Positions 10,199 through 59,460 of a stretch of 64,000 nt of DNA are shown one piece after another; positions within the stretch are counted from its first letter, which is position 1; each line of letters opens with the position of its first letter. The notes beneath the pieces were generated by a model that saw only the letters and a list, made by a program, of their open reading frames with translations, was not told the DNA's origin and did not search any database. The stretch comes from Lusitaniella coriacea LEGE 07157 (GTDB lineage: Bacteria > Cyanobacteriota > Cyanobacteriia > Cyanobacteriales > Spirulinaceae), in assembly GCF_015207425.1 (NCBI RefSeq), contig NZ_JADEWZ010000002.1:124001-188000 (forward strand). The letters run 5' to 3'. The position numbers and the translations under genes were made by a program.

Positions 10199-10602
10199 TC
10201 ACTCTCGCTATTTCTCGGTTGAACTCGCTATCTTACCGAATTTTCCTCCTTTGTGAAATCCAGGGGAGGGGGTTATAGGAAATGGTTTTAAGCTTGCTAC
10301 CCAAGGCTGACACGGTGACACGGAGAGCGGTCGGAACGCCTCTGAGGAGACGCGGAGAAATGACTTACACACAAAAAGAAAACTGACAGACCACTAGAGG
10401 AGACACGGAGACACGGAGATGACTATCGCCACTTGCCTATTGCCTGGTAACTGATAACTGAGATAGCGGCTGTCCTGATTGTTATGGCGACTGCTGTAAA
10501 AACTGCTGTACGCTAGAGCTGACCTGACAAATCGAGAAATATGTAGTATTGTTAAGTTTAATGAGATGCTGGATTGGGATATTTTTAAAACGTATTTTTT
10601 CG
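10199..10602. repeat. Repeat-rich intergenic region upstream of a membrane protein
   Basis: This region contains ggctgacacggtgacacgg-type sequence and a truncated left end of the MITE-like element (cggtcggaacgcctctgagg at 10328-10347). It also has a second acacggagacacggagatgac stretch and a tgacagaccactag motif that recurs near 50122. The left ~60 nt should hold the cbiX promoter. I see no gene. Confidence 0.6.
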
Positions 10603-26793: not shown

Positions 26794-26976
26794 AGGTCGG
26801 AACGTCTCTGAGGTTTCACGGCGGTCACAAGCATCTGAGGTTTCCTCAGATGTCGCCACCTCCTCTTGCAGCGCGATTGCACAATCTGGAGGACGCGATG
26901 CCGGAAAAGGTTCCGGCATTTCAGCCGTCCGATAGGAGACCTCAGAGTGCCTCGCGCTGAGGACGCAAGCCGACCT
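26794..26976 (+). repeat. MITE-like palindromic element, long copy
   Basis: The terminal inverted repeats are AGGTCGG and CCGACCT. Inside is a hairpin CATCTGAGG-TTT-CCTCAGATG (26832-26852). Compared with the 54504 copy, it carries about 92 extra bases (roughly 26866-26957), including another hairpin (ATGCCGGAA, 4-nt loop, TTCCGGCAT at 26898-26919). It sits inside composite repeat A, at a point where copy B has no such element. It has no coding capacity, so any movement would need a transposase acting in trans. Confidence 0.75.
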
Positions 26977-27035
26977 AGGGGAGACGGGGAGACGGGGTGA
27001 CGGTGATGACTGAATGATTGATAACTGAAAAAACC

Positions 27036-27098
27036 TGTTCCCTATTCCCTATTCCCTATTCCCTATTCCCTATTCCCTATTCCCTGTTCCCTGTTCCC
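27036..27098 (+). repeat. Heptamer tandem repeat (TATTCCC/TGTTCCC), 9 units
   Basis: Nine perfect 7-nt units: TGTTCCC, six TATTCCC, then two TGTTCCC. This is the short tandemly repeated repetitive (STRR) class known from filamentous cyanobacteria. Related arrays lie at 36096, 49990 and 52524. Confidence 0.95.
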
Positions 27099-27233
27099 TC
27101 TGATAACTGTTATGGCTACAGCTATAGCGATAAAAGCTGTCGTGACACTTGACAAACAGTACCACGCGGATCGATTGCTTCCCGAAGGCGGCGCGATAAT
27201 GAAAGGGTAGATTCGGAGAAGGAGAAAATTGTG

Positions 27234-30083: not shown

Positions 30084-30462
30084 ATTGGGGACTGTTTGAA
30101 GGCAGTGCGCGATCGCGTCATATAAAACTGGTTGAATGCCCTCAGTTTTCCTCAAATGCTTGTGCCGGACGTTTGCACCTTGTCGGCGGTGCGGGGTCTG
30201 ATCGTTCCCCGTGTCTCCGCGTCTCCGTGTCACCGCTAGCTTCTCAAGACACGATTTAAAAACTCGCAATCTTTTAGATAGCAGGTAATGCCTGCCAGCC
30301 AACAATAAAATAAATTAGGACATTACACAAAGCTATAAGCCAGAAAAAGCAAGGTTTCAACGAATAGCTGAATGCTGAAAGCTATATCTTTTGACAGATG
30401 ATAAAAAGCCATTATAAATGAGAAGATTAAAATCGAAAGTTAAGCTTAAAGCGTAATAAATA
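30084..30462. other. 379-nt intergenic region with repeat remnants
   Basis: The left part contains a gcgatcgcgtcat HIP1 site and cccgtgtctccgcgtctccg-type low-complexity sequence related to the composite repeats (minus orientation). The right part is AT-rich, presumably the promoter region of the HAD gene. No coding frame is credible. Confidence 0.5.
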
Positions 30463-35870: not shown

Positions 35871-36062
35871 GATCTGTAGTTTTTCAAGAAACTTTATTTA
35901 TTGACAATAATAGTTCTTGTGGGTCTTGAGTTGCAACAAATTTGGGTAATTGAGAATCTATATCAATTTTCTATTGGTGTTTTTCGTAAGCATTCAGCTC
36001 TCAGCAAAAGATTTGCTATTTCTGGCTTGTCGCTTTGTTGAGATGTTTTACCGTCTGGACGT

Positions 36063-36316
36063 AGTGCTATAGCTGTAGCCATAACAGTTATCAGAGGGAA
36101 GAGGGAACAGGGAATAGGGAACAGGGAACAGGGAACAGGGAATAGGGAATAGGTTTTTTCAGTTATCAATCATTCAGTCATCACCGTGTCACCCACTCTC
36201 CGCGTCACCGTGTCACCCCGTCACCCCGTCCCCGCGTCCCTGCGTCACCCGGTCACTGAGCGTGTCGAAGTGCCGTGTCATCCAAAAGCTCCCCCAGCTT
36301 CCCTTCACCCGATGTA
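36063..36316 (-). repeat. Composite repeat B, inverted relative to A
   Basis: Read on the minus strand this spacer repeats composite A: ggaagctgggggagcttttg, the cacttcgacacgctcagtg core, gtgacggggtgac sequence, gtgatgactgaatgattg, eight heptamers (36096-36151) and ctgataactgttatggctac. The MITE-like element seen in A is absent. The surrounding spacer 35871-36519 otherwise holds the AT-rich fur leader and an AT-rich leader for the following kinase, with no gene. Confidence 0.85.
36096..36151 (-). repeat. Heptamer tandem repeat, 8 units
   Basis: Eight 7-nt units written GGGAACA/GGGAATA on the plus strand (first unit GGGAAGA). These are the reverse complement of the arrays at 27036 and 52524. 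Confidence 0.95.
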
Positions 36317-49882: not shown

Positions 49883-49959
49883 TTTTCCATCCTCAAGATC
49901 ATTAAGTTATGTTTCGATTTTAACAAACAGCCTGCCCAATCGTTAGTTGACTTGTACCG

Positions 49960-50115
49960 CAGTCGCCATAACAGTTATCAGTCATCAGAGGGAACAGGGA
50001 ATAGGGAATAGGGAATAGGGAATAGGGAATAGGGAATAGGTTTCAATCATTCAGTCATCACCGTGTCTCCGTGTCTCCGTCCCCGCGTCACCGTGTCAGC
50101 CTCAACGCACAAGAT
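49960..50115 (-). repeat. Composite repeat C with 7-unit heptamer array (49990-50038)
   Basis: This copy reads gccataacagttatcag, heptamers GGGAACA then six GGGAATA, caatcattcagtcatcacc, then gtgtctccgtgtctccg and gcctcaacgcacaag. Its end (gcctcaacgcacaag) is the reverse complement of the start of composite D at about 52383. The pair flanks 50.1-52.4 kb in inverted orientation. Confidence 0.85.
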
Positions 50116-52380: not shown

Positions 52381-52635
52381 ACTTGTGCGTTGAGGCTGAT
52401 ACGGTGACGGGGGGACACGGCACTTCGACACGCTCAGTGACCGGGGATGCGGGGACGCGGAGAGGGGGGAGACACGGAGATACGGAGATACGGAGACACG
52501 GTGATGACTGAATGATTGAAACCTATTCCCTATTCCCTGTTCCCTGTTCCCTATTCCCTGTTCCCTGTTCCCTGTTCCCTATTCCCTGTTCCCTGTTCCC
52601 TATTGCCTGTTCCCTGTTCCCTATTCCCTTTTCCC
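52381..52635 (+). repeat. Composite repeat D with 16-unit heptamer array (52524-52635)
   Basis: This copy contains cttgtgcgttgaggctgat, the cacttcgacacgctcagtg core, several acggagatacggagac units, and gtgatgactgaatgattg. Sixteen 7-nt units (TATTCCC/TGTTCCC, with TATTGCC and TTTTCCC variants) complete it. It ends 7 nt from the stop of the converging UbiB-like gene. It is the longest array in the window. Confidence 0.9.
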
Positions 52636-52642
52636 TTAAATA

Positions 52643-54319
52643 CTACCGAGAAGCGAGACGATCCATACGTTCCCGGAGGTAGAGAGAAATCACGTTGCGC
52701 AAGAAAATGAGGCAACTGACTCCCGCACAAACGAAGAGCGCGATCGCGCACCCCTGATGAATATTTAACAACAAAATCCCCGCAACTAAGCTCAACCCAC
52801 TTCCACACAGGTAAATTAAGCATTTAATCGCTAAATGAATCCGTTTGAGCAAACGTTCGCTCTCTAACGAGCGAATTCTTACTTTAAATTCACCCTGCTC
52901 GATTCGCGCCTCCAAACGACTTAAGTACAGTTCGACTTTACTGGGTTGGTTGAGACGATAAGTGAGGTACTGTTTGGCTTGTTGCGCTAGGGTTCCAAAA
53001 AGATTGCCTTGGTGCTTGGCGAAGGTGAGGCTTTTGACAAAGGGTTGAGACGCAGCGAGTAAATTGTATTGGGGATCGAGAGCGCGGGCAATGCCGTCTA
53101 GGGTGGTGAGTGCTTTGATGATAAATGTCATCTGTGCCGGGAGGCGAAAGGGTTGCTCCTCAAACATGACGTACAGCTCATCTCGGATGCGATCGAGTTC
53201 TTTGATATCAACGGGTCTTTCGCGAAATTGCTCAAGGAGGAACGCCACTAAACGCTTCACTGAGGTCATATCCGATTGGGGTTCGATTAACCCCATATAA
53301 GTCAGCGTATTGACCACTTCTTCGGCATCTTTGCGCAAAACGGCAAAAAAGGTTTTCACCATTTGATCTTTCGCGATCGCTTTGACCTCTGTCATCGTGC
53401 CGAAGTCGTAGAAAATCAGGCAACCATCTTGCCGGACTGCCATATTGCCGGGATGGGGATCGGACTGAAAGAAGCCGTCTTCGAGCAATTGTTTGAGGTA
53501 GGCGCAAATTCCCAATTGAATGATTTTATCGGGATTGATGCCGCAAGCTTCGATGGTTTGGCGGTCGTTGATTTTGATGCCGGGAACGTATTCTAGGGTG
53601 AGGATTTTTTTGGTGGTGTAGCGCCAATAAACGGTGGGGACGATAATTTGGGCGCGATCGGAAAAATTGTTGCGAAACCGATCGGCGTTTTTTCCTTCGT
53701 GAACGTAGTCGATTTCTTGGAAGAGCAGGCTGAAAAATTCTTGGTAAATCTCTTCTAGCTTATATTTTCGCGCCCAGGGCATAAAGCGATTGAGCCAGCG
53801 AACGGTGCGGTGCAGGACTTCAAAATCGAGGTTAAAGAGTTGTTCGATACCGGGACGCTGAACTTTAACAACAACTTCTTCTCCGGTGTGCAATTTGGCT
53901 TTGTGAACTTGTCCGAGACTGGCGGAGGCGAGAGGCGCGCGATCGAATTCTCGATAGAGGGTGTGAACGGAATTGGCGAGTTCGGTTTCAACAACCGCGA
54001 TCGCGTCCTGGGAACTAAACTCTGGAACTTTATCCTGTAATTGCCCCAAGGCGCTCACGTATTCCAAGGGAATTAAATCGGGACGAGTGGACAGCGCTTG
54101 ACCGATTTTAATGAAAGTGGGGCCCAACTCCAATAACTGATTGACCAACCACTGAGCGCGACGATTCCTCTGTTTGGGCGTATCGTTGCCCCACAGCTTA
54201 TCCCACCCTAGGGAGAGCATTAGTTGCACCGTGCAAAAGAAAATATCCCTCTGTCGCGCGAGGGGAGAATACTTTCTGCGCTGCCAGCGAGGTCGTTTCA
54301 ATCGAACGCGAATCGTCAT
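52643..54319 (-). CDS. ABC1/UbiB (AarF) family atypical kinase
   Basis: The 558-residue protein has the family signature: KxGQ-type FIKIGQALSTRPDLIP, the Ala-rich ASASLGQVHKA loop replacing the Gly-rich loop, VKVQRPGI (ATP Lys), EIDYVHEGKNA and DPHPGNMAV. DFGTM supplies the metal Asp. Two C-terminal membrane helices follow (LIYLCGSGLSLVAGILLLNI and CAIALFVCAGVSCLIFL). Such proteins support quinone synthesis or lipid handling in thylakoid/inner membranes. Cyanobacteria carry several paralogues, so I give no symbol. Its 3' end touches the heptamer array of composite D. Confidence 0.93.
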   Translation of the reverse strand: MTIRVRLKRPRWQRRKYSPLARQRDIFFCTVQLMLSLGWDKLWGNDTPKQRNRRAQWLVNQLLELGPTFIKIGQALSTRPDLIPLEYVSALGQLQDKVPEFSSQDAIAVVETELANSVHTLYREFDRAPLASASLGQVHKAKLHTGEEVVVKVQRPGIEQLFNLDFEVLHRTVRWLNRFMPWARKYKLEEIYQEFFSLLFQEIDYVHEGKNADRFRNNFSDRAQIIVPTVYWRYTTKKILTLEYVPGIKINDRQTIEACGINPDKIIQLGICAYLKQLLEDGFFQSDPHPGNMAVRQDGCLIFYDFGTMTEVKAIAKDQMVKTFFAVLRKDAEEVVNTLTYMGLIEPQSDMTSVKRLVAFLLEQFRERPVDIKELDRIRDELYVMFEEQPFRLPAQMTFIIKALTTLDGIARALDPQYNLLAASQPFVKSLTFAKHQGNLFGTLAQQAKQYLTYRLNQPSKVELYLSRLEARIEQGEFKVRIRSLESERLLKRIHLAIKCLIYLCGSGLSLVAGILLLNIHQGCAIALFVCAGVSCLIFLRNVISLYLRERMDRLASR

Positions 54320-54503
54320 AAAAGCAGAACCCTAACGACGGATTTAAGTGGACATTTCGATGGGACTTCTCCTTTAATGTGCCACGTTCTGCTATCAAAT
54401 CCGACAATTGCAATAGATCGATTTAGAATTTACGCCTAATGTGAACTAGAGTCACCGACCCTAAATTCTCCTATATCTATCTCCCCTCTCCCAGGGTTGG
54501 GAG

Positions 54504-54594
54504 AGGTCGGAACGCCTCTGAGGTTTCACGGCGGTCACAAGCATCTGAGGAAACCTCAGATGTCGCCACCTCCTCAGAGGACGCAAGCCGACCT
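54504..54594 (+). repeat. MITE-like palindromic element, short copy inside another repeat
   Basis: This 91-nt nested palindrome has terminal AGGTCGG/CCGACCT, inner CCTCTGAGG/CCTCAGAGG and a central hairpin CATCTGAGG-AAA-CCTCAGATG (54542-54562). It appears inserted in a common 'ctctcccagggttgggagag...gggctgtgggtgaggg' repeat (about 54486-54616), whose two halves flank it. The rest of the 334-nt spacer 54320-54653 shows no gene. Confidence 0.75.
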
Positions 54595-54653
54595 TAAGGG
54601 GCTGTGGGTGAGGGCTATAAGGGTTTCTGGGTAATACACGTCAGACGTGAAAT

Positions 54654-59291: not shown

Positions 59292-59342
59292 CTTATTAAC
59301 TCAAAAATAGTAAAAAAAGCGTCTAGCCATATCGCGAAAAAG

Positions 59343-59372
59343 CCCCCTAGGTTATATCAACTAGGGGGAGGA
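59343..59372 (+). promoter_or_regulatory. Hairpin overlapping the ribosome site of mini-ORF 1
   Basis: A perfect 8-bp stem (CCCCCTAG 59343-59350, CTAGGGGG 59361-59368) with a 10-nt AT-rich loop runs directly into GGGGGAGGA, the Shine-Dalgarno sequence of the ORF at 59380. The 3' arm therefore includes most of that site. It could control translation, for example as a thermometer or protein-binding site. That role is inference. Confidence 0.6.
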
Positions 59373-59379
59373 CATCAGA

Positions 59380-59460
59380 ATGCATCTACTAGCAGTTAAC
59401 TACTCTGTATCATTCCTGATTTCCGGAAAAAATCAAAAAGAAGGGGGAGATTTCTTATGA
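59380..59460 (+). CDS. Candidate mini-ORF 1 (26 aa)
   Basis: The peptide is MHLLAVNYSVSFLISG followed by KNQKEGGDFL. It has a strong ribosome site (GGAGG at 59367-59371, 8 nt before ATG), partly buried in the hairpin. The first 16 residues are hydrophobic and the rest is polar and charged, so it could insert in a membrane. Its stop overlaps the start of mini-ORF 2 (ATGA), so the two are translationally coupled. No known peptide family is recognised. The case rests on arrangement, not homology. Confidence 0.45.
   Translation: MHLLAVNYSVSFLISGKNQKEGGDFL

Follow-up and report, generated by a model that had tools for sequence, protein, structure and literature searches.

The palindrome at 54504–54594 of the window, by which we mean the whole 64,000-nucleotide stretch analysed (positions 124001–188000 of contig 2 in a draft genome of 5.86 Mb and 114 contigs), raises the question of whether it is one repeat or several, and of how it came to lie inside another. 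It was initially annotated as a MITE-like nested palindrome whose central hairpin is inverted relative to a longer copy at 26.8 kb. We asked what the palindrome is built from, where its parts occur elsewhere and what could have moved them.

Hairpin units in the window

The element is present as described and, as proposed, has the terminal AGGTCGG/CCGACCT and a long inner sequence in common with the 26.8-kb copy (77 nt at 95% identity; 122 bits, E 1.4e-28). The centre reads CATCTGAGG-AAA-CCTCAGATG at 54.5 kb and CATCTGAGG-TTT-CCTCAGATG at 26.8 kb, and the two segments are exact reverse complements, in agreement with the reported inversion. Both copies are intergenic and both fold into concentric stems, with −52.5 kcal/mol (RNA parameters) for a 96-nt piece of the 54.5-kb copy. 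Calling the element a nested palindrome was right as to the nesting and under-described it, for each copy is a stack of separately inserted hairpin units. Likewise, the approximately 92 extra bases with another hairpin in the 26.8-kb copy are there, and they consist of two further guests: unit C, which at 94 nt replaces two host bases (92 net), and unit D held within C. We distinguish eight unit types, termed O, A, B, C, D, E (with a variant F), P and T, and call the outer repeat at 54.5 kb Z. The features in the window are as follows.

54482..54616, plus strand: outer repeat Z, split by O (extent approximate); hairpin TCTCCC..GGGAGAG, then GGGCTGTGGGTGAGGGC
54506..54598, plus strand: unit O with guest A, 54.5-kb copy, tail TTAAG included; follows GAG of Z
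54528..54572, minus strand: guest A, 45 nt, in the tip of O; its removal gives the empty O of another locus (L068)
54542..54562, no strand: inner hairpin of A; loop AAA at 54551–54553, which is TTT, the commoner state, on A's strand
26796..26978, plus strand: unit O, 26.8-kb copy, with guests A and C[D], tail TAG
26818..26862, minus strand: guest A in the 26.8-kb O; inner hairpin 26832–26852, loop TTT 26841–26843, flipped state
26866..26959, minus strand: guest C holding D, 94 nt; replaces two host bases between CCTC and AGG
26892..26935, plus strand: guest D, 44 nt, in the tip of C after GAG; loop AAGG 26907–26910
10330..10347, plus strand: truncated left arm of O (GTCGGAACGCCTCTGAGG)
30140..30200, plus strand: remnant of unit P, comprising the end of a B guest, the right arm of P and then part of a T host

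The truncated end noted near 10328 thus corresponds to a left arm of O. Because intact O siblings (L010 and L058) read CCGACCGAGGAGACGCGG where this remnant reads CTCTGAGGAGACGCGG, it likely arose by deletion between two GAGG words.

Two further features of the window lie apart from the units. An Rfam match to NsiR1 (RF02399) occupies 59335–59391 on the minus strand, with 40.5 bits against a gathering score of 39. Heptamer arrays of TTCCCTA/TTCCCTG and the reverse complement are found at 27031–27113, 36058–36156, 49959–50057 and 52505–52650, and adjoin TGACTGAATGATTGA or its reverse complement in both orientations.

Filled and empty sites

The initial annotation took the 54.5-kb copy to be an insertion that splits a common repeat, and comparison with unsplit sites in the same genome bears this out at two levels. 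With the 45 nt of A (54528–54572) cut from the window copy, what remains matches the empty O of L068 (0/48 mismatches), and with the 93 nt of O and A (54506–54598) cut out it matches the unsplit repeat of L216, near 18996 (6/48 mismatches); the latter partner was missed by a strict-seed search and was chosen from a position-fixed sample, then aligned. Similar pairs were obtained for A in B (0/40 mismatches), E in O (0/32) and P in T (2/44). Where the guest replaces host bases, the joined flanks match once these are restored: C in the 26.8-kb O with AG restored equals L014 (0/30), and B in A with three host bases restored gives 0/27 for three A copies of different inner stems. For B in the second of two P types the figure is 1/27. 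Two combinations failed the strict seed and were compared by looser alignment. For D in C (L002 tested) a single inserted base separates the joined flanks from the empty C of L013, a second alignment gap being an end effect, and A in F (L112, L060 and L059) shows, near the tip, one gap and at most one mismatch. No empty E came to light with the stem of L099, where B lies in E; the best candidate (4/27) is not a relative.

Since B lies inside A and A lies inside B, neither can simply be part of the other. A is found in O, B, F and at L026 with the same two ends, and B in A, E and two P types, again with the same two ends. A given composite turns up next to many flanks that are unrelated, within tandem arrays and within other repeats. 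The units are separate, the same guest occupying different hosts with fixed ends and with both empty and filled sites. Among the filled/empty pairs there is no clear case of a target duplication; TGAG at both junctions of E could be read as a duplication of 4 nt. The term MITE in its strict sense, which implies such a duplication, accordingly does not fit, with E as the one possible case.

Unit types, copy number and genomic context

The units are imperfect palindromes of about 40–50 nt with no ORF, in which pairing spans most of the length, and in O all of it. Most types are built from an outer stem, an asymmetric internal loop, an inner stem of about 8–9 bp and a loop of 3–4 nt, and the inner stems end in GAGG/CCTC in most types. 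A CGTC/TGTC tag with an 8–9 bp stem is seen in P, for which the search pattern demanded [CT]GTC with up to one mismatch, and in part of B, and is not seen in A, E or C; the stem is followed by G or C and then by CTTGTG, TTTATA or CCTGTA.

Genome-wide search confirmed a dispersed repeat, with at least 56 matched pieces for a 191-nt query and at least 52 for a 131-nt query. These are lower bounds from 40 scored of 127 and 40 scored of 146 candidates respectively, and one genomic place can yield two pieces; among the scored candidates the best other places reached E 8.8e-81 and 1.5e-53. Within the fetched loci, a script found A at 29 distinct places, B at 19, P at 23 (after a filter to flanks ending in AG), O at 37, E/F and C at 13 each and D at 7, counts which include an occasional chance match such as L210. 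Over the whole genome, compared with the same pattern read backwards, there were 36 P arms (control 0), 38 B arms (control 1), 17 copies of T (control 0) and 84 of the tip TGAGGNNNCCTCA (control 5). The genome is a draft, and unit counts are lower bounds. Flanks in the assembled contigs differ from copy to copy, which makes assembly error less likely. A scan for single arms yielded chance matches in the main and does not enter the counts.

Most units are intergenic: 38 of 42 unit centres lie outside ORFs of at least 150 aa and four inside (an ORF had to extend 130 nt past the centre, and L018 is counted twice among the 42), whereas 1271 of 2000 random positions in a 400-kb sample lie inside such ORFs. 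In 20 position-fixed stretches of 20 kb, units occur in at least L213, L219, L222 and L226, with a T-like piece in L215. Perfect hairpins (stem of at least 8, loop of 3 or 4) numbered 29 in this sample and 19 in one Markov control, so that hairpins in general are only mildly enriched. No Rfam match was obtained up to E 0.5 among 15 loci with units. The frequent sequence GCGATCGC and the NsiR1 match suggest that the genome is that of a cyanobacterium.

Landing sites

A, E and D land in GAG^G of the host tip GAGGNNNCC; at 54.5 kb the insertion point of A reads GAGGTTTC^CTC on the plus strand and GAG^G on the minus strand. B lands at the same tip and replaces three bases. For these several units, then, the typical landing place is the tip of another hairpin, GAG^GNNNCC, with loss of 3 nt in the case of B. 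C lands beside the tip of O, where it replaces two bases between CCTC and GAGG; P lands in CAA^GGG in an internal loop of T; and O lands after GAG in the outer repeat and also in 8-bp tandem arrays, both non-tip DNA.

Un-nested units, taken without filtering, are preceded by a 5′ word ending in AG in 21/21 cases for A, 15/15 for P, 12/13 for O and 6/7 for E/F, and over all places in 33/37 cases for O and 8/13 for E/F. Un-nested B has CTGA or CGGA before G in 16/16. Overall, the words are GGAG, GAAG, CAAG, AGAG, TGAG, CTGA, CGGA and a few others. These are not counts of independent events, as copies are related by descent; the independent part of the landing rule is that different guests obey it in different hosts.

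Inner stems and loop flips

The inner stems vary in sequence and keep their pairing. In 28 distinct inner hairpins 98.8% of cells are paired, compared with 80.5% when partners are shuffled, and 43 cells are changed on both sides, compared with 11.8 (0/1000 shuffles in each case). Two-sided changes are seen at six of the nine inner-stem pairs, a number that 47/1000 shuffles reach. The hairpins were taken by script, and four of 72 un-nested places which had no hairpin with a 3-nt loop were dropped. B occurs in A tips whose halves differ together (atctg, attcg and atttg).

On the strand used here, the 3-nt loop is pyrimidine-rich in 56 and purine-rich in 12 of the 68 un-nested copies (A, B, P, O and E/F) that have such a loop, as if one strand were recognised. 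The A of the 54.5-kb copy belongs to the major kind and that of the 26.8-kb copy to the minor kind. The difference between AAA and TTT could in principle be a substitution or an inversion; inversion is favoured because asymmetric loops elsewhere flip, the loop of D being CCTT in four of seven copies and AAGG in three. Two unusual copies may be set beside these flips: L012 has two identical O arms in one copy, and C55:10276 (L025/L040) is an A–C hybrid joined at the tip.

Occurrence in other genomes

The combination of O and A was found in this genome only, whereas hairpins of the B and T types also occur in a few other genomes of the same order. With O+A as query, short weak matches alone were returned, from 3 of 58 relatives, and the 12 relatives in the same family gave none. 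Compared with the pattern read backwards, B-arm counts are raised in four relatives (26 vs 0 in G024, 10 vs 0 in G007, 6 vs 0 in G051 and 4 vs 0 in G054), where not all copies examined have the whole hairpin. Of the 58 relatives, only G007 (35 vs 0) and G057 (18 vs 0) have T. Because T is patchy and G057 belongs to another family, this distribution suggests that T may have been transferred horizontally. The tip TGAGGNNNCCTCA is raised over its control in G006 (17 vs 2), G007 (18 vs 3), G031 (9 vs 1) and G057 (9 vs 2). A 301-nt piece carrying O+A had no plasmid match, and the strict B pattern was absent from viral contigs. Nineteen single matches to the A core in unrelated taxa, from a collection that may omit this genome itself, came without the palindrome and were set aside as chance.

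In G057 the bases just outside T pair for at least three positions in 16 of 17 copies, through several different arms (mean 3.18 vs 1.41 when shuffled, 0/1000; one of 18 copies, with no right end, was dropped). In G007 the same holds for 11/12 (mean 2.83 vs 2.05, 7/1000; rows with identical flanks dropped). There T sits between IS605-like arms CCGTCCT and AGGACGG, and the repeated T arms suggest T inside T. Other unrelated inserts occur in B hairpins of G024, in the inner stem or in the gap between stem and right arm (L266, L271, L272, L273, L274 and L289). Nesting is therefore not confined to the genome of the window.

We also note that at L304, L327 and L333 of G007 rows of T arms flank a T unit on both sides, as if several T-into-T insertions had taken place. 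At about 1718–4166 of L278 (G024) a B-type hairpin lies between what we take to be a CRISPR-like array, judging by its periodic translation, and a large ORF that may be Cas10.

Candidate enzymes and neighbouring IS elements

The genome has eight Y1 matches. Two belong to remnants of the IS605 type, in which the open frames measure 55 and 95 aa, and we read the remaining six as candidate RAYT genes. Five of these six loci (L132, L134, L135, L136 and L137) carry GTAG hairpins of their own, of several different sequences; at the sixth, L130, no GTAG hairpin was seen. The sole unit beside a candidate RAYT is one small O copy just upstream of that in L135, and at none of the six loci is the gene flanked by units as by a cognate repeat. 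Y1 genes are found in 52/59 genomes, and because of this their presence does not discriminate. With own GTAG hairpins at 5/6 loci and Y1 genes so widespread, we did not accept RAYT as the proven engine. No enzyme is tied to the units, which counts against a Y1/HUH engine.

A search for a transposase with matching ends had been suggested. In a limited look at the fetched loci, no arms of O lay 300–3500 nt apart, and no longer element with these ends was found there. No intact tnpA of the IS200 type was seen in the genome, which has fragments at C59 and C11. A zinc-finger motif for TnpB (our own motif) was present in 0/76 match-centred loci, overlapping loci included; the TnpB-bearing locus L131 came from a separate search outside these 76. 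There, at 1380–1500, a P unit lies in the loop of an IS605-type end hairpin, CCCCGTCCTTC..TAGGACGGC, and at 1360–1500 of L133 another lies beside one. L131 also has, at 2420–2470, a second P-type hairpin inside a reading frame, in the 3′ part of a tnpB-like gene.

Proposed mechanism and alternatives

We think it probable that the units are discrete mobile units. That they are minimal mobile hairpins which land in hairpin tips, probably via single-stranded DNA, with a strand-switching process that inverts the tips, we regard as evenly poised between acceptance and doubt. By this mechanism the folded unit would be cut and joined 3′ of a word ending in AG in a folded single-stranded target, with single-strand chemistry such as that of the Y1/HUH enzymes of the IS200/IS605 and REP kind. 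Each guest would supply a tip of its own, so that nests could grow and the composites then be found in many places. A further process would act at the perfect inner stem, where switching of strand or template would flip the loop or give symmetrical or hybrid copies. IS200/IS605 insertion makes no target duplication; here an AG-ending 5′ word stands at most un-nested units and duplication is not seen, in copies that are not independent and with some hosts losing bases. A Y1/HUH enzyme as the engine is a tentative proposal, towards which we lean slightly sceptical. Against a single tip-insertion model count the differing landing places of B, C, P and O, and against mobile hairpins that no presence/absence at orthologous places between strains was seen.

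The main rival dispenses with a transposase. Replication would stall at a hairpin tip, and the nascent strand would switch to another hairpin through GAGG/CCTC, copy inside it and return, with spread by template switching and gene conversion. Loop flips (56 vs 12, and 4 vs 3 for D), the A–C hybrid and the twin O arms of L012 are typical products of such switching, GAGG and CCTC are common to hosts and guests, and plastid DNA is known to show such flips of palindrome loops (PMC2903610). It is not expected, however, that guests should keep the same two ends across hosts as A and B do in the hosts listed above. Template switching accounts for flips and hybrids better than for constant guest ends, and we consider it rather unlikely. 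Nor do we find it easy to see the hairpins as end structures of IS200/IS605-type elements (TnpA/TnpB), that is, as non-autonomous relics spread by an IS transposase. In G007 a B-type hairpin does lie about 40 nt past a tnpB-like ORF (L275), long flanks are repeated (L276 and L277) and T has its IS605-like arms; in G051 both copies examined are near tnpB-like ORFs; and P units occur in and beside IS605-type hairpins (L131 and L133). Yet the P unit of L131 looks like a guest in the IS hairpin, and the 0/76 loci with the TnpB motif, together with a tnpA seen only as fragments, make relics of this kind improbable.

A reading as classical MITEs, mobilised by a DDE transposase through recognition of terminal inverted repeats, would agree with the terminal AGGTCGG/CCGACCT of O and with dispersed, mostly intergenic copies that have no ORF. 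This explanation is already weakened by filled/empty pairs without target duplication (save the possible reading for E), by units that pair along most of their length and by fetched loci in which no longer element has the ends of O, and we judge it very improbable. Least credible of all is that the units are conserved gene-linked structures, such as terminators or mRNA ends, grown by in-place duplication. Their intergenic position and strong folding would suit such a role, but the same composites recur in many unrelated surroundings, tandem arrays and other repeats among them. The initial annotation had set insertion against an element known only as part of a conserved gene-linked structure with no empty sites, and empty sites exist.

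Returning to mobile hairpins, units that moved whole, at about 45 nt, would rank among the smallest mobile DNAs and would have a folded structure as target, and the exact filled/empty pairs are ready substrates for an enzyme search. This would shed light on how palindromic repeats have spread, so far without explanation, in plastids, mitochondria and bacteria.

Comparison with known systems

The GTAG REPs and REPINs that accompany RAYT genes are likewise short extragenic hairpins, some of them bulged, with a conserved 5′ foot word and spread within genomes (PMC3733652, PMC6006769, PMC8266576, PMC3116915). Their foot word is GT[AG]G, whereas here it is AGAG, GGAG, CAAG and similar and the units have no GTAG foot; unlike GTAG REPs and REPINs, the units are nested and have no cognate flanked RAYT. 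Y1/HUH enzymes bind hairpins and use a short guide word at the foot of the hairpin to choose where to cut (PMC6006769, PMC8266576). In one REP system cleavage is strongly impaired when the loop is in its reverse complement (PMC8266576), and an effect of this kind would fit the unequal loop orientation of the units.

Palindromic repeats inside other palindromes have been described for GTAG-15 of A. variabilis, GTAG-23 of T. roseum, the targets of which have a 3–4 nt centre, and CGTC-1 of H. neapolitanus (PMC3733652, section 7). As described in that section, these cases have one level and one guest family per host, whereas here several families nest in both orders. CGTC REPs resemble P and part of B in their inner stems of about 8 bp after CGTC/TGTC, often with an A/T foot, and differ in having a loop of 4–5 nt and a CCA tail where the units have a 3-nt loop and no CCA tail (PMC3733652); Cyanobacteria are not among the phyla that the consulted part of that account lists for CGTC repeats. 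One fixed position of a palindromic repeat is likewise used by IS elements that target REPs, but those guests are whole IS with transposase genes and not hairpins of about 45 nt (PMC1525189).

Although no description of this nested-hairpin system was found in the mainly open-access literature covered, the small dispersed repeats of Nostoc reported by Elhai et al. in 2008 fall outside that scope. These very small cyanobacterial repeats are reportedly thought to be mobile, and that work may already describe related units.

The closest published counterpart that we have seen is in the mitochondrial and plastid DNA of Volvox carteri, where short palindromic repeats are “inserted into one another” (PMC2670323). 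The Volvox repeats belong to green-algal organelles, have a far higher density and are of other sequences (TCCCCTTTAGGGA) (PMC2670323). Exact guest ends, empty sites and reciprocal nesting are present here and absent from the portion of the Volvox account consulted. It is possible, although we are inclined to doubt it, that mobile hairpins of about 45 nt integrate at folded hairpin tips with any of several stems as host, parasitise one another recursively, use IS end hairpins as platforms, move between distant genera and are the bacterial counterpart of the algal organelle palindromes. From the parts of the published accounts cited here, nested small palindromes were already known from Volvox organelles, REPs in palindromes from a few bacteria and loop flips from plastids; what seems new is reciprocal nesting at several levels, with exact empty sites, in a bacterial chromosome.
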